A stretch of DNA of 64,000 nucleotides. Source: Candidatus Nitrosomarinus catalina (GTDB taxonomy: Archaea; Thermoproteota; Nitrososphaeria; Nitrososphaerales; Nitrosopumilaceae). The notes beneath the pieces were generated by a model. It was given only the letters and a program-made list of their open reading frames with translations, searched no databases and was not told the DNA's origin. Shown here one piece after another: positions 24,142 to 61,294 of the stretch; position 1 is the first letter of the stretch; every line of letters starts with the position of its first letter. Where the stretch lies: NCBI RefSeq assembly GCF_002156965.1, contig NZ_CP021324.1, forward strand, positions 694,681 through 758,680, read 5' to 3'. The translations under genes and the position numbers were made by a program.

Positions 24142-25110
24142 TTACAAAACAGAATATTCTTTTTTTGATTCAACTAGATCTAACAATAAGTTTTTTGGAA
24201 AAGGATCAAATAGGGATTGTTCTAGAATAATTTTTACATCATATCTTAATGCCCAAGAATAGAGTAGTGTAGATATTTCTGATTGTAAAATTAAATCATT
24301 TTCAAACTCATCAATTAATGATTGATAATGAGATTTTTCAGATTCAGATAATTTTGATTTTACAAAATTAAACATGTATTCAAATGTGTTAATCATAGGG
24401 GTTTTTTTTACAGGGGAGGACAATACATCATATGCAATTTTTTGAAATTTCTTTGAAATAATTTCAAAGTCATCCTCAATTTTAAAAATCAAACCAAGTT
24501 CAGCTGTTAATGTTTCATCATGACATAAAAATAAAAGCATATTTTTTGAATAGAATTCAAATAATTTTGCAATAGACTGGGATTCTAAAGATTCTCGTAA
24601 ATTTGCTAAAACAAAAATCCTCGTTAGAAAATGCTCCCTAATTGCAATATTTTCAAGTCTTTTTTCATCTTCCTTAACCATATTGGGGAATTCTGCAGAT
24701 ACACCTTCAGAAAACATTCCAGAAGTTTTTTGATATCCAGAATCTGTACCTAATTTATGATATAATCTAACATTAGATATTCCACATGTAGGGGAATCTC
24801 GTTTAAAGATAAAACCATCAAGAATATCCACAGAGCTAACAAATTTTTTTGTAAAATTATGCATTTCTTCAGTTAGATTTTTTTCTGATGAAGGTTGATA
24901 GAGATTTTTTATTCCATCAATTTTAACAAGTCTAATAGGTTTTCTAGGAGTACCCAATCCAATTCCAACCTCAGGGCAAACTTGAACAAAATCCACATAT
25001 TTTTTCATATTTCTAACAAAATTGTTATTGATTCTACTACCATCATATCTACACATTTCAAATTCGAGGCATTTACTGATACCAATTATTGGTCGTGAAA
25101 AATCACTCAT
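24142..25110 (-). CDS. DUF523 (TudS-like) - DUF1722 (YbgA) fusion protein
   Basis: 322 residues from the ATG at 25110; a TTG four codons upstream is less likely since the TATA box lies about 25 bp from 25110. The N-terminal half is DUF523: GISKCLEFEMCRYDG, VCPEVGIGLGTPR and RDSPTCG supply the cysteines that hold an Fe-S cluster in thiouracil desulfidase TudS. The C-terminal half matches DUF1722/YbgA, though divergent. In Escherichia coli ybgA is next to the photolyase gene phrB. The promoter carries the same TTAGCACTA element as the 50-61 kb cluster. Likely role: repair or detoxification of modified nucleobases; inferred. Confidence 0.8.
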   Translation of the reverse strand: MSDFSRPIIGISKCLEFEMCRYDGSRINNNFVRNMKKYVDFVQVCPEVGIGLGTPRKPIRLVKIDGIKNLYQPSSEKNLTEEMHNFTKKFVSSVDILDGFIFKRDSPTCGISNVRLYHKLGTDSGYQKTSGMFSEGVSAEFPNMVKEDEKRLENIAIREHFLTRIFVLANLRESLESQSIAKLFEFYSKNMLLFLCHDETLTAELGLIFKIEDDFEIISKKFQKIAYDVLSSPVKKTPMINTFEYMFNFVKSKLSESEKSHYQSLIDEFENDLILQSEISTLLYSWALRYDVKIILEQSLFDPFPKNLLLDLVESKKEYSVL

Positions 25111-25158
25111 ATGAAAATTCAAACTTCAGTGAATATAACTGGAAATAAAATATTTAGA

Positions 25159-25167
25159 TAGTGCTAA
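25159..25167 (-). promoter_or_regulatory. TTAGCACTA element upstream of DUF523-DUF1722 gene
   Basis: Plus strand reads TAGTGCTAA, which is TTAGCACTA on the coding strand. It lies 49 bp upstream of the ATG at 25110 and about 21 bp upstream of a TATA-like TATATTC (25132-25138 region). Spacing and orientation match the copies in the 51-61 kb cluster. Confidence 0.65.
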
Positions 25168-49833: not shown

Positions 49834-51117
49834 TTATTCATTAATTTTTAATGGAATTTCAATGCTTCCAAAGTTTTCATTAACTCTAAAACTATAACTC
49901 TTTGAAGAATCATATTCAAATTGATTTCCACCATATCCAATATTTGGACCAAACATCATGTTAAAAATAACAGAGGTTCCAGGATTTATTGGAATTTGGC
50001 CAGATACGAAATCCATGCCAGCATATTTGAATGCCTTTGAACCATCCCAAACATCATAACTACAGATAGACGGACCTGTGCACTTTAATGAAATTACTTC
50101 ATTGCCAGTATTTTCAGCTAAAATTCTTAATCTTAGCATTGCTTGACCAGAAGAACTGATTTCAAATTCATTTCCAAAATTTCCAATTCCAGGATAATAG
50201 TAAGTGATTGGACCTACACCATATTCATTTGAAGATTTTTTAAATTCTATAAATTCAAGATTTTGTTTTATTTCCTTTTCACAATTTAGTCGCTTGTATG
50301 TAGACTTGATCGATTGACATTCAGTTAGCAAAGGATCGACATTATCAGAAACTAATTCAACAGAGTCATCACTAACGGATATGATTCCAGTTTTTACAAG
50401 ATGTGTAATCCCACTAAGAAAATCAGATTCAGTGATTTGGCCTTCTGCCCACCAGCCAGCATTATTTTTTACCCAAGCAGGAATTTTATCACTTTTTTCT
50501 GCAGATGAGGTTTCATTTATTTCAAGAATCTTTTCTTTGATTAAAAATTGAATACCTTGAATGAAAGCATCATCATCAATGTCATCATTTGCCCACCAGC
50601 CTGCATTATTTTTAATCCATGATGGAACTTGTTCAACAGATAAAGACATACGGTATTTTGAATCTATATTGTCAAGTAATGGCTGCATATTTTGACCAGA
50701 TATTTTTACAATTGCAGCTGAGAATATTTCAGATGTTGAGCCATCTGGCATTGTAAAATCAACATATTTTGCATATACAGTATCACCAGGCATTGAAACT
50801 AGTCTATTTTTTACAGTATCACCAGAGTCAGCAACAAACACACGACCTTTGAAAATACCACTGTAAACTCCTGTTTCTACAACTTGGATTTCAAGGCCAG
50901 CTGGAGAAGAATCAGACCACACAGATATCATAAATTTATCAGCAAAATTTGGATATTCTTTTTTATTCATATCATTATCATGTACATAGATATCAACAAA
51001 CGAATTTGTTGAAATGATTTCTTGTTTCCAATACATAGTACCAACATTAGAGGATTCAGCAAAGGCTATTGGAATTGAAAAAACAAGTAATGGAATGATC
51101 AAAAATAAAAGATTCAT
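49834..51117 (-). CDS. secreted protein with two WIKNNAGWWA repeats
   Basis: 427 residues. Signal peptide (about 1-20), an N-terminal beta domain of about 150 residues, two repeat modules (VPSWIKNNAGWWANDDID and IPAWVKNNAGWWAEGQI), a linker and a C-terminal beta domain (YYPGIGNFGNEFEISSSG ... GPNIGYGGNQFEY). The C-terminal domain is clearly homologous to that of the next gene at 51213. Likely extracellular or surface attached. A TTAGCACTA element lies 50 bp upstream of the ATG. Confidence 0.8.
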   Translation of the reverse strand: MNLLFLIIPLLVFSIPIAFAESSNVGTMYWKQEIISTNSFVDIYVHDNDMNKKEYPNFADKFMISVWSDSSPAGLEIQVVETGVYSGIFKGRVFVADSGDTVKNRLVSMPGDTVYAKYVDFTMPDGSTSEIFSAAIVKISGQNMQPLLDNIDSKYRMSLSVEQVPSWIKNNAGWWANDDIDDDAFIQGIQFLIKEKILEINETSSAEKSDKIPAWVKNNAGWWAEGQITESDFLSGITHLVKTGIISVSDDSVELVSDNVDPLLTECQSIKSTYKRLNCEKEIKQNLEFIEFKKSSNEYGVGPITYYYPGIGNFGNEFEISSSGQAMLRLRILAENTGNEVISLKCTGPSICSYDVWDGSKAFKYAGMDFVSGQIPINPGTSVIFNMMFGPNIGYGGNQFEYDSSKSYSFRVNENFGSIEIPLKINE

Positions 51118-51166
51118 GAAATTTTTTACTTTTTTTAATTATATAAAAAGTGGAACTAGTAAGCAA

Positions 51167-51175
51167 TAGTGCTAA
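51167..51175 (-). promoter_or_regulatory. TTAGCACTA element, 49834 gene
   Basis: Coding strand TTAGCACTA, 50 bp upstream of the ATG at 51117 and about 19-20 bp upstream of the TATA-like tract at 51140-51148. Confidence 0.65.
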
Positions 51176-51212
51176 ATAAATAAAAATAAAATAAAAATAA
51201 GAAAAAGAAGTC

Positions 51213-52160
51213 TTATTCTAGGTCTAGGTGAACATCCAAACTACCAAATGGTTCATTGATTCTGAATGTGTATGTCTTTGAAGGATCATATTCAAATTCA
51301 GTTCCACCATATCCAATATTTGGACCAAATAGAATGTTGAACTCCTTGGCTGTTCCAGGATTTAGGTTGATTTGTCCACTAGTGAAATCCATGCCAGAAT
51401 ATTTGAAAGATTTTGAACCGTCCCAAACATCATAGTTACAAATTGAAGGACTTGTACAATTCAAACTAACAATGTCTGAAGAAATGTTATCGGCCAACAT
51501 TCTGATATTCAAAATTGGTTGTCCTGTAGGACTAATTTCAAAGGTGTTACCCTCAGAATTTACACCAAACCAATAATAATTGATTGGTCCTACTTGCATT
51601 AATTCAGCACCAGTTTTGTATGTATGAACAAGAATTTCTTGTTTAATTGGCTTTTCACAATCAAGTCTTTTGTAGGCCTTGACTATTTCTGAACATTTCT
51701 CTAATTCAGCTTCAAGAGAAGCAATTACAGGGTCATCGCTTGATGATGTAGATTTTTGTTCCTTTTTAGCAGATGCCATTTCAGTAGCAGCCTTTGCTAC
51801 ATCACTAGCTTGTTCAGGTAATACTTTCATGATTCCTTCTTTGATCAAGAATTGAATTCCTTGAACAAATGAATCGTCATCTATGGTACCATCAGCCCAC
51901 CAGCCTGCGTTGTTTTTAATCCAGGATGGGATTTCATTACTAGAACTTACTCCTTGTGTGGTTGGAGGAATTTCCATGATTCCTTCTTTGATCAAGAATT
52001 GAATTCCTTGAACAAATGAATCGTCGTCAATTGTTCCTTCTGCCCACCAGCCTGCGTTGTTTTTTACCCAAGATGGTACTTCTGCATATACAGACGAAAC
52101 ACTTGAGCCAACAAGCAGCAATACGGCAATTGTTGAAATTGCTGTTATGAGAGTTTTCAT
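51213..52160 (-). CDS. secreted paralogue with two WIKNNAGWWA repeats
   Basis: 315 residues. Signal peptide (about 1-26), then two repeats (VPSWVKNNAGWWAEGTIDD and IPSWIKNNAGWWADGTIDD, each followed by DSFVQGIQFLIKEGI), a Ser/Lys linker and a C-terminal beta domain shared with the neighbouring 49834 gene. The two genes probably arose by tandem duplication, with the N-terminal beta domain lost or gained. ATG start. Confidence 0.8.
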   Translation of the reverse strand: MKTLITAISTIAVLLLVGSSVSSVYAEVPSWVKNNAGWWAEGTIDDDSFVQGIQFLIKEGIMEIPPTTQGVSSSNEIPSWIKNNAGWWADGTIDDDSFVQGIQFLIKEGIMKVLPEQASDVAKAATEMASAKKEQKSTSSSDDPVIASLEAELEKCSEIVKAYKRLDCEKPIKQEILVHTYKTGAELMQVGPINYYWFGVNSEGNTFEISPTGQPILNIRMLADNISSDIVSLNCTSPSICNYDVWDGSKSFKYSGMDFTSGQINLNPGTAKEFNILFGPNIGYGGTEFEYDPSKTYTFRINEPFGSLDVHLDLE

Positions 52161-52209
52161 TACAGAGAAATTTGGTTAATTATATTTAAAATGGTGCCAA
52201 ATCATTTTC

Positions 52210-52243
52210 TAGTGCTAATTGTTTTCAAAAAATATAGTGCTAA
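52210..52243. promoter_or_regulatory. two TAGTGCTAA elements in a divergent promoter
   Basis: TAGTGCTAA at 52210-52218 and again at 52235-52243. The first is 50 bp upstream of the minus-strand start at 52160 (TATA-like tract 52180-52188, about 22 bp away) and 52 bp upstream of the plus-strand ATG at 52270. The second lies closer to the plus-strand gene, where a TATA box is less clear. The pair may allow joint control of both genes. Confidence 0.6.
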
Positions 52244-52269
52244 CCACTAATTGGTTAGGAGTTGTTTAT

Positions 52270-52851
52270 ATGCAAATTGTAATCGATCATCGTGTATGTC
52301 AAGTTACGGAATTAAAAAAGGATGAAACCATGATGCAAAACTATCACAAAGTGTTAACTCAAAAAGAAATCAAAGAATTTGTTCTAGATAAATTTCAAAA
52401 TGTAAAAAAAAGTAACAAAGTAAAAGAATTAGTTGAATTTCAAGCAATGAACAAGTTTTTGATAATGGCCCACAATCAAGAGGAGCTCAAGGTATTAGGC
52501 AGAATTGTTGCCAGCAACAAAAAAGTAAAATTTTCAGAAATGTTAGAAGAGTATGAAAAAAATCTCGGTTTATGTTTACAGTTTAAACCTACAATCAAAA
52601 CACACAGCAATGTAATAATGCATATTTTTGGTTTTTTTTCCAAGGAGTTTTCTCATCTAGAAAGAGACAAATTTTTTGATTTATTAAAAAATTATAAAAA
52701 TGAAACAATCACAATAGGAGACATACTTGCAGAAATTCATCCAATAGTATTCAGATTTAATAAAACATACCTTGCTGGACAAACATATTTTCTACTATAT
52801 TCTAATCCAGCAAATGGAAATATATTCAAAATTTTAGAAAATCAAAAATAA
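52270..52851 (+). CDS. DUF1722 (YbgA-like) protein
   Basis: 193 residues from the ATG at 52270. FLIMAHNQEELKVLGRIV, THSNVIMHIFGFFSKEF, and the IHPIVFRFNKTYLAGQTYFL ending match DUF1722/YbgA. In bacteria ybgA occurs next to or fused with photolyase genes or DUF523. A related domain is fused to DUF523 at 24142. Function unknown; context suggests photo- or nucleic-acid-damage response, inferred. Confidence 0.82.
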   Translation: MQIVIDHRVCQVTELKKDETMMQNYHKVLTQKEIKEFVLDKFQNVKKSNKVKELVEFQAMNKFLIMAHNQEELKVLGRIVASNKKVKFSEMLEEYEKNLGLCLQFKPTIKTHSNVIMHIFGFFSKEFSHLERDKFFDLLKNYKNETITIGDILAEIHPIVFRFNKTYLAGQTYFLLYSNPANGNIFKILENQK

Positions 52852-53066: not shown

Positions 53067-54494
53067 TTATGAAAAGTCAGTATTATAAACCGGTCTGGCA
53101 CCTTGAGGTACCTCTGCAGAAGCAGATTCAGATACAGGTTTTCCTCGGACTTGATAAACTCGTACTTTATGAAATACATTGTGGGAGGAGAATATAGCCA
53201 ATCCAGCAATTGCCGCACCAATGAAATTTCTAATTGTAATTTCCAAGCTAGGCTCAGATGCGACCAATGAGAGTTCAAATACAACATAAAAGTTATCAAA
53301 TAGCCAAAATGCCAGAGTAACCCAAGCAAGAATTCCACCTATCAAATAACCCAAACGAGCCTTCTGTTTGACAAAAGATATTGCAAACAAAATAGCAGCA
53401 TACCAAATCAATGAACCAATTAACCAAGGAATTTCCCAAACATCAGTTCTATCATCTAACCAATAGTAGGTGGTACCAATGAAAGCCATTGCACATAAAG
53501 TAATTAAGAGAATTTTTTGATTCATTTTATACGAAGTTTTTTCTCCTTCAGATTTAGAAATAGAGTTGAAAGATTTTGCTTCTTCCCTAGCAGTCTGAAT
53601 TGCTTGAGTCATATGTTCTAATTGAACGGGTATCATTTTTTGTCCAGTTTTATCTTTAACAACAGAATCATGCACCAAACTATCAACAAGAGGTCTTGCC
53701 AAAGATGCTTTAACTGGAGTTACTAAATCAATCCAATATGAAGAAAGTCTAGGAGTTAAGAAAGGGATTTGAATAATCATTAAATTTCTATTAAGGATAG
53801 AAGAATACAATCTCATTAATTGTTCATATGTCATTGTATCAGGTCCACCAATTTCTAAAATTTTTCCTGCAGTTTCAGAATTTTTCATTGCACCAATTAA
53901 GTAATCAACAACATTTTCAACTGCAATAGGCTGTGTTTGGGATTTAACCCATTTTGGACAAACCATGAAAGGTAATCTTTCAACTAAATATCTCAGCATA
54001 GCATAAGAACCACCTTCAGCACCAACAATTACAGATGCTCGTAATTCAGTTACAGGAATAGATCCACTTGCCAGAATTTTTCCAACATCATGTCTACTTC
54101 TCATATGTTTTGATAATTCTAAACCTTCATTGACTAAGCCACCGAGATATATGATTCTCTTTACACCAGAATCAGTTGCAGCCTTTAAGAAATTTTGAGC
54201 CTGCTGTTTTTCACGATTAGCAAATTCAGCCCATTCTTTTTTTGAGCCTTCCATGGAATGTAGTAAATAAAATGCTGTTTCAATGCCTGTTGTAGCCTGG
54301 GTTAAAGAGTCAACATCAAATGCATCTGCCTGAACACGTTTAACAGTTTCAGTATCAGGGTATTTTGATCTAGACATTGCCGTGACTGTAAATCCAGAAT
54401 CAGTTAATTTATTCAAGAGTTTTTTTCCAATAAAACCACTAGCACCAGTTACCAAAATATCGTATGGCTTAGTTTGCGTAACAATCTCAGACAA
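53067..54494 (-). CDS. SDR oxidoreductase with four-helix membrane tail
   Basis: 475 residues. Residues about 12-230 are an atypical short-chain dehydrogenase: TGASGFIGKKLL (Rossmann), the YLLHSM and LGGLVNEG segments, and LRASVIVG. The C-terminal about 150 residues contain four hydrophobic helices (ITLCAMAFIGTTYYW, WLIGSLIWYAAILFAISF, YLIGGILAWVTLAFW, IRNFIGAAIAGLAIF), so it is membrane-bound. Such SDRs occur beside FAD-oxidoreductase and light-regulated genes in bacteria. Ends a three-gene minus-strand run with 54497 and 54877. Confidence 0.85.
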   Translation of the reverse strand: MSEIVTQTKPYDILVTGASGFIGKKLLNKLTDSGFTVTAMSRSKYPDTETVKRVQADAFDVDSLTQATTGIETAFYLLHSMEGSKKEWAEFANREKQQAQNFLKAATDSGVKRIIYLGGLVNEGLELSKHMRSRHDVGKILASGSIPVTELRASVIVGAEGGSYAMLRYLVERLPFMVCPKWVKSQTQPIAVENVVDYLIGAMKNSETAGKILEIGGPDTMTYEQLMRLYSSILNRNLMIIQIPFLTPRLSSYWIDLVTPVKASLARPLVDSLVHDSVVKDKTGQKMIPVQLEHMTQAIQTAREEAKSFNSISKSEGEKTSYKMNQKILLITLCAMAFIGTTYYWLDDRTDVWEIPWLIGSLIWYAAILFAISFVKQKARLGYLIGGILAWVTLAFWLFDNFYVVFELSLVASEPSLEITIRNFIGAAIAGLAIFSSHNVFHKVRVYQVRGKPVSESASAEVPQGARPVYNTDFS

Positions 54495-54496
54495 TC

Positions 54497-54868
54497 TTAA
54501 AACACATCACTTAATTTTTTTAATTTTCTTATGTCAGTGATTTCAATATCACTACTTCGTGTGACAATTTTTGCAAGTTTAGGATTTGCTTTTTCTCCTA
54601 ATTTTAACACAGGTTCACCTTTAAAATGAACTTCAATTGTAGTTTTTTTCTTTGCTAAATCTTTTGCAAGTTCTTTTGCTTCAGAAAGTTGTTTTAGAAA
54701 TCCAGGCATTTTTGTAATTTCAATTGGAATATCAATTACATCAATAATTTTTGTGCTGCCATCAACACGAAAATTTATCGTAGGTTCACCGTCACATGTC
54801 ACGGTTAGTTTGCCATTATCTAAATAAGATAAAAAATTAGCGGGTAGATCAAAGTTTTTCATTCTCAT
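54497..54868 (-). CDS. hypothetical protein, 123 residues
   Basis: Not recognised. A soluble alpha/beta protein (MKNFDLPANFLSYLDNGKLTVTC start; helix FLKQLSEAKELAKDLAKK; C-terminal strand pairs). It begins 8 bp after the 54877 gene and ends 2 bp before the SDR, so the three are one operon under the 55121 element. No catalytic motif seen. Confidence 0.65.
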   Translation of the reverse strand: MRMKNFDLPANFLSYLDNGKLTVTCDGEPTINFRVDGSTKIIDVIDIPIEITKMPGFLKQLSEAKELAKDLAKKKTTIEVHFKGEPVLKLGEKANPKLAKIVTRSSDIEITDIRKLKKLSDVF

Positions 54869-54876
54869 ACCACACT

Positions 54877-55071
54877 CTATTTTTTTGCTGTAATGGTAAG
54901 TTTTCCACTTAGGGAGACTGTACCAGTTGGGACAACTTGCTTGTCTTTCATAATCTTACCTGCCATCTCAAGATTGTCAAAATCGTAAGTGATTGCGGCG
55001 TGTTTTTGTGTAAGTTTGTCAAAGATTTCTGCAAGAAGGTTTGCCCATTCTTGTTCTTCTGTACCTGCCAT
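54877..55071 (-). CDS. hypothetical protein, 64 residues
   Basis: Start at the ATG at 55071 (MAGTEEQEWANLLAEIF); an upstream in-frame start at 55110 would overlap the TATA region. 64 residues, half helical then a beta hairpin (VVPTGTVSLSGKLTITAKK). First gene of the minus-strand operon with 54497 and the SDR. Function unknown. Confidence 0.6.
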   Translation of the reverse strand: MAGTEEQEWANLLAEIFDKLTQKHAAITYDFDNLEMAGKIMKDKQVVPTGTVSLSGKLTITAKK

Positions 55072-55120
55072 GATAATGTTTTTTGATTTATGATATTTAA
55101 CCGAAAACATAACTCTACAC

Positions 55121-55129
55121 TAGTGCTAA
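55121..55129 (-). promoter_or_regulatory. TTAGCACTA element, SDR operon
   Basis: Coding strand TTAGCACTA, 50 bp upstream of the ATG at 55071 and about 20 bp upstream of a TATA-like GATATTTAA tract (55092-55100). Confidence 0.65.
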
Positions 55130-55149
55130 TAAATTAAATTTATAAAATA

Positions 55150-55158
55150 TTGGCACTA
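55150..55158 (+). promoter_or_regulatory. TTGGCACTA element (one mismatch), B12-sensor gene
   Basis: TTGGCACTA, one mismatch from TTAGCACTA, ending 49 bp upstream of the ATG at 55207 and 22 bp upstream of the TATATAT box (55180-55186). A further partial copy (CTAGCACTG, 55156-55164) overlaps it. It is back to back with the element of the divergent SDR operon, 20 bp apart. Confidence 0.6.
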
Positions 55159-55206
55159 GCACTGATGGTTACCATTAGTTATATATCGAAAAAATCAATA
55201 ATTGTA

Positions 55207-56061
55207 ATGGTCTACATTAGGGCTAAAAAAGTCAAATCAGATCAATATCTCTATTTAGTAAAAAGTGTCTGGGACTCAAAAAAGAGTACATCAAAACAGG
55301 AGATTGTAAAATATCTAGGAAAAGCCTCAGAAGTAATAAAAGATGACATTCCCGAGGAATTCAGAAATGATCCCAAAATATTATCAGTTTTGGCATCATA
55401 TAACCCTGAAGACATAAAAAAAAGAGAAGATGCGACAAAAAAATCAAAACAGCAATTATTTAAAAAATTGACAGATGGTAACCTGGAGGAATGTATTAAA
55501 ATTTATAAAAATTACGTGGACATATTTAACGTACCAGACTTTTTTGACAAGATTCTAAGACCCGTAATGAGCAAAATAGGTTCAGACTGGGCAAATGGCA
55601 AATTAGCAATCGCAACAGAACATGTTGCCAGTAATGTAGCACAAACTTTAGTAAAAATCATTATGGAACAAGTATCAGGTGCAGGAAATAAAAAGAAAGT
55701 AATGTTATGCGTACCCGTGGGGGAAGAGCACCACATGGGATGTGATGTGTTGGAAACATATCTTACAATAAAAGGATTCAAAGTTTTCAATATGGGCACA
55801 TCAATTCCGACAGACTCAATTATGGAATTTATCAGTATGAAAAAACCAGATGTTATTTTAATTTCAATAACAATTGAAGATAACGTATCTGCAGGACAAA
55901 GACTAGCAAAAAAAATTAGAGAATATTGTAAAACACCAATTTTAATCGGAGGATATGCATTACAACAGGACAACCCTCCAAAATTTGAAGGTAATGTGGT
56001 AGGCGATATGAGTTTAGAAGAGATTCCAAAAATTATTAGAAAAATACCATTAACTAATTAA
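55207..56061 (+). CDS. B12-binding CarH/LitR-like putative photosensor
   Basis: 284 residues from the ATG at 55207, placed about 24 bp after a TATATAT box. N-terminal about 45 residues (YLYLVKSVWDSKKST...IVKYLGK) resemble the N-terminus of IS4/IS1634-type transposases, not MerR. Then a helical cap (about 75-155) with W128-x9-E138-H139, the motif that contacts the adenosyl group in CarH, and a Rossmann B12 domain with E173-x-H175-x-x-G178 (cobalt ligand), SITIEDN and GGYAL. In CarH light breaks the Co-C bond. Sensor role inferred; DNA binding uncertain. Confidence 0.8.
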   Translation: MVYIRAKKVKSDQYLYLVKSVWDSKKSTSKQEIVKYLGKASEVIKDDIPEEFRNDPKILSVLASYNPEDIKKREDATKKSKQQLFKKLTDGNLEECIKIYKNYVDIFNVPDFFDKILRPVMSKIGSDWANGKLAIATEHVASNVAQTLVKIIMEQVSGAGNKKKVMLCVPVGEEHHMGCDVLETYLTIKGFKVFNMGTSIPTDSIMEFISMKKPDVILISITIEDNVSAGQRLAKKIREYCKTPILIGGYALQQDNPPKFEGNVVGDMSLEEIPKIIRKIPLTN

Positions 56062-57404
56062 GAATTTAAAAAAGATTCGATTTTTGGAGCACATAAAATT
56101 GAGCTGTGTGCAGCAGAATCAGTTCCAATTCCATAACTCACAGTAGAGTCACCGACAAAAAACAAGCCATCTATTCCAGGAATTTGATGAGGCATTTTTG
56201 ATTTCCAAACTTTTCCAGGTTCTTTTACAACAGACTCCACTAGTTTCCAGGCCATTGGACGTTCCCATAATAATGAAGAGTCAAATGTTGGGTAAATTGA
56301 TGATATCTCTTGCTTCATTTTGCTGACAATACTTTTAATTTTTTCAGGGTCCTCAGTTTCAGAAGGTAATACAGGAGTTCCTGCAATTATCAAATGCTCA
56401 CCTTTAGGAGATACAGAAGGAGTAATGTTTGATATGAAAAAAATGCCCTTTGTGACATAATTATCACCTACGGGAAATACAACTTGTCGTGTGTCAATTT
56501 GAGAATTTAATGCAAAATGAACTTCAACTACAGAAGTTGTTTTGTTTAATTTATCAATTTTTTGAACAAATTTTTTATCAATTACATTTTCATCAAATAA
56601 TTGATTCAATGCAGTGTATGCAGGATAAGAAATAACAACAGAGTTTGTTTCAATAAACTTTTCAGAATTAGGTGAATCACTTACAACAACTCCAGTAACT
56701 TTAGAGTTCTCAACAATCACTTTTTTTACAGATTGCTTTGTATGGATTTCACCTTTCTTTTCTAAAATAAATTCACCTAGAACCTTGCAGATAGAATCAT
56801 ATCCACCACCATCAGGATATGCAAATTCGCTAGTACCGCCCTTAAACGGATTTGCTCTAATAATGGTTCTAGCAAATTCACCTAAAGATATATGATCTGC
56901 AGTGTCGGCAAAAGCTAACATGCATACGGCTTCAAAGAATGCATTTGTATCAGCATCCAGATCACTAGTAATTTTTGTTAAAGGTATTTCATCCCATAAT
57001 TCAGTTTTTTCTATAGAAGAAAAAGCCAAGGGCAATAATAATTTCAAAAGTCTAACTCTACTTTTGAATGGAATTAAGGATAATTTTAGTAAATCAACCA
57101 TCCCTTTTGGATAGATATGAAAACCGGTTTCTGCATAAAATGCAATATCATCAACTTTTGCCAATTTTAATCGAGATTCTATTCCCAAATTTTTTAAAAT
57201 AGTAAAGATAGCAGATTTTTTGTAAAATGGCATTATGTGAAAACCGTTATCCAAAATGTGATTTTTGTATTCCATAGCAGCGGTCCTCCCACCCAATTTT
57301 GAAGATTTTTCTAAGATCATTACGTTATGACCGTTGTTTGCCAACATTGCACCCGTAGTTAATCCACCAACACCAGCACCAATTACAATTGTCGGTAAAG
57401 ACAT
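56058..57404 (-). CDS. phytoene-desaturase-like FAD oxidoreductase
   Basis: 448 residues from the ATG at 57404. N-terminal FAD Rossmann: TIVIGAGVGGLTTGAMLANNG then LEKSSKLGGRT; C-terminal FVGDSTVSYGIGTDSAAHS. This is the carotenoid-desaturase/protoporphyrinogen-oxidase-type amine-oxidase fold. Substrate unknown (carotenoid or other isoprenoid is plausible). Overlaps the B12 gene stop by 4 bp, convergently. A TTAGCACTA element is 49 bp upstream. Confidence 0.88.
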   Translation of the reverse strand: MSLPTIVIGAGVGGLTTGAMLANNGHNVMILEKSSKLGGRTAAMEYKNHILDNGFHIMPFYKKSAIFTILKNLGIESRLKLAKVDDIAFYAETGFHIYPKGMVDLLKLSLIPFKSRVRLLKLLLPLAFSSIEKTELWDEIPLTKITSDLDADTNAFFEAVCMLAFADTADHISLGEFARTIIRANPFKGGTSEFAYPDGGGYDSICKVLGEFILEKKGEIHTKQSVKKVIVENSKVTGVVVSDSPNSEKFIETNSVVISYPAYTALNQLFDENVIDKKFVQKIDKLNKTTSVVEVHFALNSQIDTRQVVFPVGDNYVTKGIFFISNITPSVSPKGEHLIIAGTPVLPSETEDPEKIKSIVSKMKQEISSIYPTFDSSLLWERPMAWKLVESVVKEPGKVWKSKMPHQIPGIDGLFFVGDSTVSYGIGTDSAAHSSILCAPKIESFLNS

Positions 57405-57452
57405 GCCTAAATTCAATAATTTTTGTATTTAACAGAGGCTAACTTAATTTTA

Positions 57453-57461
57453 TAGTGCTAA
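57453..57461 (-). promoter_or_regulatory. TTAGCACTA element, FAD oxidoreductase gene
   Basis: Coding strand TTAGCACTA, 49 bp upstream of the ATG at 57404 and about 22 bp upstream of the TATA-like tract around 57425-57431. Confidence 0.65.
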
Positions 57462-57467
57462 CTAATC

Positions 57468-57908
57468 TTACATGGATTTTGCATATAATTCTGCACAAAT
57501 AATGAATTCAGACATTACTGAATCCATCTTTTTTAATAAAAGAATTTTTAAAAAAGGAACAAATTTTAAAATTCCATTTAATTGTAAATTAACTTCAATA
57601 GAAATGTCAGTGCCAGATGAATTAGAATCATAGGTTTCAACAAATGATGTCCCCTTTGCAGGGCCAGTCAAAATAAGCACTTTATGTAAATTAGGCTGGA
57701 TTATCACATGTTTTGTTTTAATTTCAATTTGCCTACCAAGGAAATCCAGATATTCTAAAACAATTTTTTCATTTGAAGAATCACTTATAATTTTTAAAGA
57801 TTTAAAATAATCCGGCATTACCTTATGAAAATTTTCAACATCGGTACTAATTTTAAAAATTAAATCCCTGTTTAATTTACTTTTTTGGATAAGAGTAAAA
57901 CTACTCAT
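57468..57908 (-). CDS. SRPBCC (START-like) protein
   Basis: 146 residues from the ATG at 57908. ISTDVENFHKVMPDYFKSLKI and the EYLDFLGRQIEIKTKHVI strand series, ending in a long helix (LLLKKMDSVMSEFIICAELY), form the hydrophobic-ligand-binding START fold. It overlaps the upstream gene by 8 bp. SRPBCC genes commonly accompany SDR/FAD oxidoreductase genes in bacterial light-response clusters. Ligand unknown. Confidence 0.8.
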   Translation of the reverse strand: MSSFTLIQKSKLNRDLIFKISTDVENFHKVMPDYFKSLKIISDSSNEKIVLEYLDFLGRQIEIKTKHVIIQPNLHKVLILTGPAKGTSFVETYDSNSSGTDISIEVNLQLNGILKFVPFLKILLLKKMDSVMSEFIICAELYAKSM

Positions 57909-58263
57909 TTGCAATAGGAGTTTTTAGAAAGTCCCATAAATTTGATTTTATGATGTTCATATCAGGATAACATTTTTGAATTTCTAAACATAAATTTGCC
58001 AATGACTGTTTAACAGCATCAGTTTTTTCAGGGTCAGTTGCAGGCAATAGTCTAATTGTAGTTCTGTCCTTACCAGTCATTACTTGAATAAAATAATCAT
58101 GATGAGAATTATCAATTACAACTGTTGAAAATAAGGCATTTTTGCCTTGAACATCGGTATACATCTCATGAATTTTGATCAGCGGAGATTTTTGAAAAAG
58201 AGGTTTAAACAATATTGCAAAATCAAAAAGATTGATTTTTTGATCCAGTACAATATGAGGCAT
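57901..58263 (-). CDS. hypothetical protein, 120 residues
   Basis: Not recognised. Alpha/beta, with KINLFDFAILFKPLFQ helix, NALFSTVVIDNSHHDYFIQVM strands, and a C-terminal helix. First gene of a two-gene operon with the SRPBCC protein (8-bp overlap). ATG start; TTAGCACTA 49 bp upstream. Confidence 0.65.
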   Translation of the reverse strand: MPHIVLDQKINLFDFAILFKPLFQKSPLIKIHEMYTDVQGKNALFSTVVIDNSHHDYFIQVMTGKDRTTIRLLPATDPEKTDAVKQSLANLCLEIQKCYPDMNIIKSNLWDFLKTPIANE

Positions 58264-58311
58264 AAATTTCTGTCCGATTCATTGTATTAAAATACAAAAA
58301 TAATATGTAAA

Positions 58312-58320
58312 TAGTGCTAA
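58312..58320 (-). promoter_or_regulatory. TTAGCACTA element, 57901 operon
   Basis: Coding strand TTAGCACTA, 49 bp upstream of the ATG at 58263 and about 20 bp upstream of the TATA-like tract 58284-58292. Confidence 0.65.
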
Positions 58321-58376
58321 CTAAAACTCAATTTCCTAGTGGTAAATGAAGAAAATAATTTTTACGAGTAGAAATA

Positions 58377-58385
58377 TTAGCACTA
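58377..58385 (+). promoter_or_regulatory. TTAGCACTA element, second TFB gene
   Basis: TTAGCACTA ending 49 bp upstream of the ATG at 58434 and 21 bp upstream of TTATATAAA (58406-58414). A weaker TAGTGGTAA lies at 58337-58345, in the middle of the divergent promoter. Confidence 0.7.
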
Positions 58386-58433
58386 GAGAAAATTTCTTTG
58401 ATTTGTTATATAAAATGAAAGCATAAAGTGTTC

Positions 58434-59345
58434 ATGTTAACTGAATTAGTACATCAAGAAAATTGTAAGAAACATGAAATAGTTACAGACATGCATACTG
58501 GGGAGATTGCATGTAGTAACTGCGGAATAGTATCATCAGAACCAATTGTTGATCTAGGAGCTGAAATGCCAGGAGGAAGTTCAGCAGATTACCAAAATAA
58601 TTCAAGAGTTGGAGCAAAAAGATCTTTAAAGATGATAGACATGGGACTGTCTACATTAATTGAAGCTAAAGATAAGGACGTAACAGGTAAATCACTGTCA
58701 GTAGAAAACAGACGAATGTTTTACAGATTAAGAATGTGGGACAGAAACAGTCGCTCAGCTGTCACATCAAAATCGTTTCAAAAGGCATTCACTTTACTTG
58801 ATGCAATAAGTTCAAAGCTAGGTCTGCCTGAATCAGTAGTCGAAGAAAGTGCATATTTGTTTAGAAAAATTGCAGCAAGAAAGATTCTTGCAGGAAGATC
58901 AACAGCAGCTATGTTATCTGCCACAATTTATGCAACATGCAGAATTACAGATACGCCTAGAACACTACAAGACATTTCTGATGCAGCAAACATTAAGAAA
59001 AAAGTTCTACAAAGAACATACAGATTCCTTGCAAAAGAGATGGACATATCACCTGAGTCATACACACCATCAGAATTTGTCACCAGAATTGCAAAGGGGT
59101 TAACTTTGTCAGAAAAAACACAAAGACTTAGCTTCAAAATACTTGATTTGTGCGCAAAAAAGCACGTTTCTACAAGTAAAAATCCAATGGCCATGGCAGC
59201 AGCTGCAATACACCTAGCAGCAACAACCAATGGTGAAAAAGTATCACAGCTAAAAATATCCAAAATGTCAGGAATTAGTGCTGTTACCATAAGAGAAAGA
59301 AGAAAAGAAATTGTCAATAAGATAGGAGATGTAAAAGTTGGGTAG
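58434..59345 (+). CDS. second transcription factor B (TFB paralogue)
   Basis: 303 residues from the ATG at 58434. The zinc ribbon reads C11-x2-H14 ... C27-SN-C30, so His replaces the second Cys of the usual CxxC. B-finger and two cyclin repeats follow as in the TFB at 48357. It lies among promoters carrying TTAGCACTA and has the element itself. A dedicated initiation factor for this cluster, with autoregulation, is an inference. The 3' end overlaps the zinc-ribbon gene by 8 bp. Confidence 0.92.
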   Translation: MLTELVHQENCKKHEIVTDMHTGEIACSNCGIVSSEPIVDLGAEMPGGSSADYQNNSRVGAKRSLKMIDMGLSTLIEAKDKDVTGKSLSVENRRMFYRLRMWDRNSRSAVTSKSFQKAFTLLDAISSKLGLPESVVEESAYLFRKIAARKILAGRSTAAMLSATIYATCRITDTPRTLQDISDAANIKKKVLQRTYRFLAKEMDISPESYTPSEFVTRIAKGLTLSEKTQRLSFKILDLCAKKHVSTSKNPMAMAAAAIHLAATTNGEKVSQLKISKMSGISAVTIRERRKEIVNKIGDVKVG

Positions 59346-60356: not shown

Positions 60357-60788
60357 ATGCAATACATAGAAAGAGAGTTAGCCCCAGATACAAAGATACC
60401 AATTAGAATTGGATTCATCAAACCCAATGGGGCTCCATCAATTATTTCATTATGGTATATCGATATAAATGGAAAAATCTATTGTGCAACACAAAAAACT
60501 GCAAAAATTATTCATTACTTGGAAAATAAACCCACATGTGGATTTGAAATAGCAGCAGATCAACCCCCATACAAAGGCTCACGAGGTGAAGGAATTGTTA
60601 AAATTATACCATCTAAAGGTCCAGAAATTTTGAAAATTTTAATTAAAAAATATCTAGGAGATAAAGAATCCACATTATCAAAATTCCTATTAAGTCATTC
60701 AAAAAATGAAATTGCAATTGAAATTACACCAAAAAAAATATTTCATTATGACTATTCAAAGCGCATGAAAGGAATTAGTTATGAATGA
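60357..60788 (+). CDS. split-barrel flavin-binding protein (PPOX type)
   Basis: 143 residues. IPIRIGFIKPNGAPSIISLWY, IYCATQKTAKIIHYLENKP and CGFEIAADQPPYKGSRGEG match the pyridoxamine-phosphate-oxidase-like barrel that binds FMN or F420. A GTGAGG Shine-Dalgarno-like stretch lies about 11 bp before the ATG, consistent with a leadered transcript. Overlaps the next small gene by 8 bp. Confidence 0.82.
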   Translation: MQYIERELAPDTKIPIRIGFIKPNGAPSIISLWYIDINGKIYCATQKTAKIIHYLENKPTCGFEIAADQPPYKGSRGEGIVKIIPSKGPEILKILIKKYLGDKESTLSKFLLSHSKNEIAIEITPKKIFHYDYSKRMKGISYE

Positions 60789-60918
60789 CGACGGATGTCC
60801 CACATGTGGTTCAAAAAATTTTGGCACAATAGAAATGAAAAAAGATGTCAAAGGATTAGTGAATTGGAAAAAACAATGTTACAATTGTAAAAAATTTTGG
60901 AACGGTTCAGATTATTAG
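60781..60918 (+). CDS. small CxxC-CxxC protein, 45 residues
   Basis: 45 residues: DGCPTCGSKNFGTIE and KQCYNCKKFWNG, two CxxC pairs forming a zinc ribbon. Starts 8 bp inside the split-barrel gene. The next TTAGCACTA element overlaps its final codons. Confidence 0.65.
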   Translation: MNDDGCPTCGSKNFGTIEMKKDVKGLVNWKKQCYNCKKFWNGSDY

Positions 60919-60923
60919 CACTA
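60915..60923 (+). promoter_or_regulatory. TTAGCACTA element, 60980 gene
   Basis: TTAGCACTA, 57 bp upstream of the ATG at 60980 (48 bp from an in-frame TTG at 60971) and 20 bp upstream of TTTTAAATA (60943). A weaker TTACCACTA lies at 60935-60943. It overlaps the stop codon of the preceding gene. Confidence 0.6.
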
Positions 60924-60979
60924 TAACTAATAATTACCACTATTTTAAATAAAAAGAACTACTAGTAAGATTGAATACA

Positions 60980-61294
60980 ATGCAACAGACAACACAACAA
61001 AAACCACCAGTATTGAAATTTTTAGCAATAATTTCAATCGCTACGGCAGTAATCTTGGTGCTTACAATTACACCATGGAACATTATGCCAACATCTGTAA
61101 CTGAGGATGTTCAAGTCATTGCAACAACTGAGATTGGATGTATAGGAGAATCAGCACTAGGACATTCAGTGGTCGTAGAAAACTGCCAAGCCAAAGTGGG
61201 TGACATAATATCTGCCACATTCTACGTTCCAGCACTAGAGCAAAATGGATATTATGACAAAATCCAGGAGAAATTAGAGAAGGTCACCCCTTAA
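60980..61294 (+). CDS. membrane-anchored hypothetical protein, 104 residues
   Basis: A membrane helix (about 12-32, VLKFLAIISIATAVILVLTI) then an extracytoplasmic domain with two cysteines (GCIGESALGHSV, ENCQAKVG) that may form a disulfide. No known family. Start either the ATG at 60980 or a TTG at 60971, the latter fitting a leaderless transcript from the TATA at 60943. Confidence 0.65.
   Translation: MQQTTQQKPPVLKFLAIISIATAVILVLTITPWNIMPTSVTEDVQVIATTEIGCIGESALGHSVVVENCQAKVGDIISATFYVPALEQNGYYDKIQEKLEKVTP

Follow-up and report, generated by a model that had tools for sequence, protein, structure and literature searches.

A 284-aa protein encoded within the window (the whole 64,000-nucleotide stretch of Candidatus Nitrosomarinus catalina DNA analysed here) is likely to be a B12-based photoreceptor-regulator in which an adenosylcobalamin (AdoCbl) domain of the CarH/photocobilin type is carried on a non-MerR, transposase-like beta-sheet domain that putatively binds DNA. 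The signature and predicted fold of its cobalamin domain, its gene neighbourhood, its co-occurrence with photolyase and a shared promoter element support a light-responsive B12 regulator over a methyltransferase corrinoid carrier.

Architecture and light-type signature

The gene and its domains were delimited by translation, Pfam and alignment as follows.

55207-56061, +, B12-domain regulator gene, 284 aa
55207-55326, +, N-terminal domain (aa 1-40), IS1634-transposase-like, putative DNA-binding
55450-55662, +, B12-binding_2 helical cap (aa 82-152), G125-x2-W128-x9-E138-H139
55699-55965, +, B12-binding Rossmann domain (aa 165-253)

A CarH/LitR-type B12 light-sensor signature had been proposed in the sequence-only reading, and translation of the forward strand places W128, E138, H139, E173, H175 and G178 exactly where that reading had them, as part of a complete set. 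Pfam matches B12-binding_2 at residues 82-152 (6.7e-10) and B12-binding at 165-253 (8e-11), the Rossmann residues being G172-E173-x-H175-x2-G178, G197-x3-P201, S220-x-T222 and G248-G249. The published signature of light-responsive cobalamin domains, GxxW, EH, GxxH and GxxxP (PMC11796333), is met as GSDW, EH, GEEH and GTSIP; the string that defines LitR/CarH, Wx9EH plus ExHx2G-x41-SxT-x22-27-GG (PMC9304148), is met as Wx9EH plus ExHx2G-x41-SxT-x25-GG. Across 38 thaumarchaeal sequences (the 284-aa protein and 37 orthologues 33-88% identical to it), G125, W128, E138, H139, G172, H175, P201, G248 and G249 are invariant and E173, S220 and T222 are conserved in at least 90%, a degree of conservation that rules out a chance resemblance. 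The same genome provides an internal negative control in a MetH-type domain, where F and VL replace W and EH and DxHxxG is kept; the expectation that corrinoid methyltransferase proteins lack W-x9-EH holds for those seen here. The position of CarH His132 is occupied by Ala129 and varies among orthologues, so the bis-His photoproduct cannot form; His132 is likewise absent from CtMerR and the photocobilins, which retain a light response (PMC11796333). Cobalamin is made by Thaumarchaeota (PMC7490402) and a cobalamin adenosyltransferase is encoded in this genome; AdoCbl binding and photolysis by the protein itself are inferred.

An AlphaFold2 model built from the 38 sequences (pLDDT 89) was compared with the PDB using Foldseek, and the best 50 matches were all CarH/LitR, photocobilin or CtMerR photoreceptors, with TM scores of up to 0.86 by target length. 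A methyltransferase-type B12 site in the structure, which would have refuted the proposal, was therefore not what the prediction returned. A sequence-profile search ranked photocobilins and CtMerR first, followed by trimethylamine corrinoid protein, methionine synthase and CarH, so that by profile and fold together CtMerR (PDB 8JBS) and the photocobilins (8J2W/8J2Y) are the closest solved cobalamin domains. The best NCBIfam match is the CarH equivalog NF052513 (2e-14, 53.5 bits, far below its 400-bit cut-off) and neither Pfam nor NCBIfam finds a MerR domain in the protein; because of both the missing MerR domain and the sub-threshold score we do not class it as CarH. A search for viral relatives found none.

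The N-terminus, already suspected not to be MerR, is instead predicted by AlphaFold2 to form a three-stranded beta-sheet followed by helices, and its first 40 residues contain 10 K/R against 3 D/E. Its short YLV...YLG segment aligns with the N-termini of IS1634 transposases (hhalign probability 96.8, E 2e-10), although these transposases were gathered with a hand-made, motif-biased consensus. The 284-aa protein has no transposase catalytic domain, and transposase identity was rejected. The domain gave no meaningful sequence match in Pfam, NCBIfam or the PDB, its structure matched nothing in the PDB below E 0.5, none was found in plasmid records, and other genomes of the phylum yielded no convincing match outside the class. 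In the absence of a solved or confident structural relative, DNA binding by this domain is merely inferred. Within its own genome it is confined to two B12 proteins, the 284-aa protein and a paralogue. Within the family, a Fic-like protein (by appearance) of a related genus (L175:2434-3321) has a weakly similar YLE...YLG N-terminal segment.

A promoter element that tracks the gene

Around the B12 gene, the following genes and operator-like sites were identified.

52219-52851, +, DUF1722 gene, co-occurring with the B12 gene
53067-54494, -, NAD(P)-binding SDR/NmrA-type gene with a hydrophobic C-terminal region, conserved neighbour
54877-55110, -, divergent small gene, 77-aa ORF
56058-57416, -, FAD amine-oxidase/carotenoid-desaturase-like (CrtI-like) gene
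57468-58263, -, SRPBCC-like gene and 120-aa gene, conserved neighbours
58428-59345, +, transcription initiation factor TFB paralogue, putative regulon member
55150-55159, +, operator repeat 1 TTGGCACTAG, ending 19 bp before the TATA box
55169-55178, +, operator repeat 2 TTACCATTAG, abutting the TATA box; 19-bp direct repeat
55179-55185, +, TATA box TTATATA of the B12 gene
55120-55129, -, operator TTAGCACTAG for the divergent genes, 19 bp before TTAAATA
52209-52243, -, operators TTAGCACTAG and TTAGCACTAT, between the g315 gene and DUF1722
57452-57461, -, operator TTAGCACTAT, 19 bp before TTAAATA of the CrtI-like gene
58311-58345, -, operators TTAGCACTAT and TTACCACTAG, before the 120-aa gene
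58377-58386, +, operator TTAGCACTAG, 19 bp before TTATATA of the TFB gene
25158-25167, -, operator TTAGCACTAT, before the DUF523-DUF1722 gene (24142-25122)

The TATA box of the B12 gene ends 21 bp before the ATG at 55207, which fits a leaderless transcript, and promoter geometry likewise suggests that the 77-aa divergent ORF starts at MAGTEEQ near 55070. No riboswitch was found by an Rfam search of 54500-58500. Upstream of about 60 orthologues lies a direct repeat, TTRGCACTAK ... TTRGCATTAG, spaced by 18-19 bp, the second of its copies lying directly against the TATA box. Across 121 loci there are 453 occurrences of TTRGCACTAK, where scrambled controls give 4-11. The distance from this motif to a TATA-like box is narrowly fixed, with 155 sites at 19 and 59 at 20 (214 together) and about three at most other offsets; the start codon usually follows 21-22 bp after the TATA, as in leaderless archaeal transcripts. 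TTRGCAYTAK lies near the starts of B12 genes (105/119), DUF1722 (49/56), desaturase-like, that is CrtI-like, genes (40/48), TFB (31/69) and SDR (30/76), compared with 83/1197 other genes and about 1% or less overall for scrambled controls. Photolyase itself is near the motif in just 3 of 17 loci. The 1.36-Mb genome analysed here has 13 exact motif sites against one for the control, nearly all of them immediately upstream of genes, including one 57 bp upstream (L073:6345) of the photolyase operon, which lies 41 kb from the B12 gene and has photolyase as the second gene behind the motif.

The element tracks the gene across genomes. The composite GCACTAK-N19/20-TTWWATA occurs 4.59 times per genome in members of the genus that have the B12 gene (n=46) and 0.19 times, the control level, in those without (n=26; p 4e-12); elsewhere in the family the values are 2.90 and 0.22. 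Part of this motif loss is target loss, since targets vanish together with the regulator.

These data bear on the possibility that another protein, such as a TFB paralogue or an unknown regulator, reads the motif and that the B12 protein is a co-regulator, comparable to AerR for CrtJ. Such an arrangement would fit the constant spacing from TATA and the occurrence of the motif ahead of a TFB gene, and DNA binding by the N-domain is unproven. Yet the motif stands before the B12 gene in distant-family loci with no adjacent TFB, the motif-TATA unit falls to control level where the B12 gene is missing, and a 10-bp site whose end is 19 bp away from TATA lies out of reach of TFB-BRE contact; we regard this explanation as unlikely, though still to be reckoned with.

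Several further genes were seen behind the same operator. The DUF523-DUF1722 gene, 30 kb from the B12 gene, has it 19 bp before a TATA-like box. Two secreted/membrane proteins with repeated PSWIKNNAGWWA segments (window 49834-52160) each have an operator upstream, and in 17 of 40 loci homologues of theirs are found next to the B12 gene. Two genes at window 60357-61294, one of 143 aa (pyridoxamine-oxidase-like by eye) and the other of 107 aa, have an operator each, at a distance from a TATA-like box matching that of other sites. A family of 186-187 aa proteins occurs on both sides of photolyase (L073:6402-6962 and L073:8382-8945), and a similar protein lies behind the operator elsewhere in the genome (G000:C1:254339).

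Co-occurrence with photolyase and putative targets

The sequence-only reading had recommended a search for this architecture in other archaea; of 300 genomes sampled from the class, about 111 have the family, whose distribution within the genus is patchy. Photolyase is present in 39 of the 300 genomes and the B12 gene in 37 of these 39 (p 5e-16), as it is in all 17 photolyase genomes within the genus (p 1e-4), and 22 of 40 photolyase matches are no more than 12 kb from a family member. DUF1722 exceeds its cut-off in 64 genomes, and 60 of them carry the B12 gene. Shared ancestry is not accounted for in the p-values given here, and the genome counts are not phylogenetically independent. Of the 26 genomes of the genus without the B12 gene, 25 are also without the desaturase-like gene and all 26 without the g143 gene, indicating that the gene set moves as a unit. 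SDR, FAD amine-oxidase/desaturase-like, DUF1722, SRPBCC-like and TFB genes recur around the family, with photolyase in several lineages; in Pseudomonas, a light-regulated LitR gene is flanked by a similar set of photolyase, short-chain dehydrogenase and FAD oxidoreductase (PMC9758184).

Might the regulator sense cobalamin level or redox state, with AdoCbl as an ordinary ligand, instead of light? Because Thaumarchaeota produce cobalamin (PMC7490402), the domain could report AdoCbl supply. However, the regulon goes with photolyase and DUF1722, none of the motif-bearing genes read was recognised as acting in cobalamin synthesis, and the signature is that of light-responsive domains, which makes this alternative quite unlikely.

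A paralogue that has lost W and EH

Outside the window, the genome encodes a paralogue (G000:C1:795434-796264; L073:10402-11265) with 34% identity that has lost W and EH but kept GEQH. It shares the N-domain, is divergent from a gene that by eye is MEDS-domain-like, and lies about 2 kb from photolyase; its promoter carries another element, ACTCATC-AGGTGCGTAAT and relatives, which is partly palindromic. An intact Wx9EH is the criterion that divides B12-dependent CarH from B12-independent CarA (PMC9304148). The paralogue, without W and EH much as CarA is without the Trp, is comparable to CarA and class II LitR but differs from them in having no MerR domain, and by analogy the 284-aa protein and its paralogue recall the myxobacterial CarH/CarA pair.

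It could be argued that the 284-aa protein is itself a stress regulator that works without B12 and whose cobalamin domain is a relict, given that such derivatives are known (PMC9304148, PMC9758184) and that the paralogue looks like one. In the 284-aa protein, however, the whole signature, the very criterion that splits CarH from CarA, is intact and nearly invariant, and we consider this very unlikely. A methyltransferase corrinoid carrier (MtaC/MtbC-like) or MetH fragment is scarcely credible: the B12-binding_2/B12-binding architecture is common to both and TIGR02370 (corrinoid carrier) reaches 47.7 bits, but its cut-off is 215 and the protein falls far under the cut-offs of all corrinoid carrier families in NCBIfam, W-x9-EH is invariant, the top 50 folds are photoreceptors without exception, an N-domain is present, the promoter context is operator-like and, as had been noted at the outset, no methyltransferase gene occurs among the neighbours examined.

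Proposed mechanism

For the B12-based photoreceptor-regulator that we favour, we envisage that in the dark AdoCbl-bound oligomers would occupy the direct-repeat element (TTRGCACTAK, located 19-20 bp upstream of TATA), with the second repeat, abutting TATA, also part of the bound element at the B12 gene's own promoter. Blue or green light would break the Co-C bond and alter the oligomer, and with it DNA occupancy, so that photolyase, DUF1722, SDR, FAD desaturase-like, TFB and other genes would be induced and the B12 gene would regulate itself. The targets are identified by sequence; the oligomer change and the induction by light are inferred. We favour dark repression as the sign, given that at the gene's own promoter BRE/TATA would be covered by the proximal repeat. 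The sign nevertheless remains open, and a light-switched activator is not excluded, since the strict distal spacing also suits an activator touching the basal machinery.

Comparison with known systems and significance

The best reading is that the archaeal protein is a counterpart of CarH with another putative DNA-binding domain. With CarH/LitR of Thermus, Bacillus and Myxococcus it has in common a light-type AdoCbl domain bearing W-x9-EH and ExHx2G, a direct-repeat operator at the promoter and a link to light-protection genes. It differs in having a beta-sheet N-domain where those have a MerR helix-turn-helix, a 19-bp repeat spacing where theirs are tandem 11-bp repeats, and Ala in place of His132. 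CtMerR and the photocobilins resemble it in the absence of His132, whereas their partner domains are MerR, bilin-binding and GGDEF. MtaC, MtbC, MtgC and MetH share the overall cobalamin-binding fold, but those seen here have no W-x9-EH and their partners are methyltransferases.

Our literature search, the scope of which excluded preprints and most subscription papers, found no archaeal B12 photoreceptor and no light regulation in ammonia oxidisers. Published signature mining has reported diverse partner domains for light-responsive cobalamin domains, and some archaeal sequences may already be listed, uncommented, in its supplementary network. On balance, we think that we have identified the first archaeal B12 photoreceptor regulon, spread across ammonia-oxidising archaea, with an undescribed DNA-binding domain, its own operator (TTRGCACTAK-N19/20-TATA), photolyase and photoprotection targets and, in some genomes, a CarH/CarA-like pairing with a B12-independent-looking paralogue.

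Ammonia-oxidising archaea are nitrifiers that occur in abundance, and the level of light is known to influence where they are found. A B12 light sensor could explain how these light-sensitive organisms detect daylight, and the result supplies a named gene, a putative binding site and a target list. The gene is also a marker that divides genomes with the photoprotection regulon from those without it, and a short archaeal B12 light switch may be of interest for optogenetics. More broadly, the light-type cobalamin domain appears to have been re-used in Archaea with a new putative DNA-binding end.
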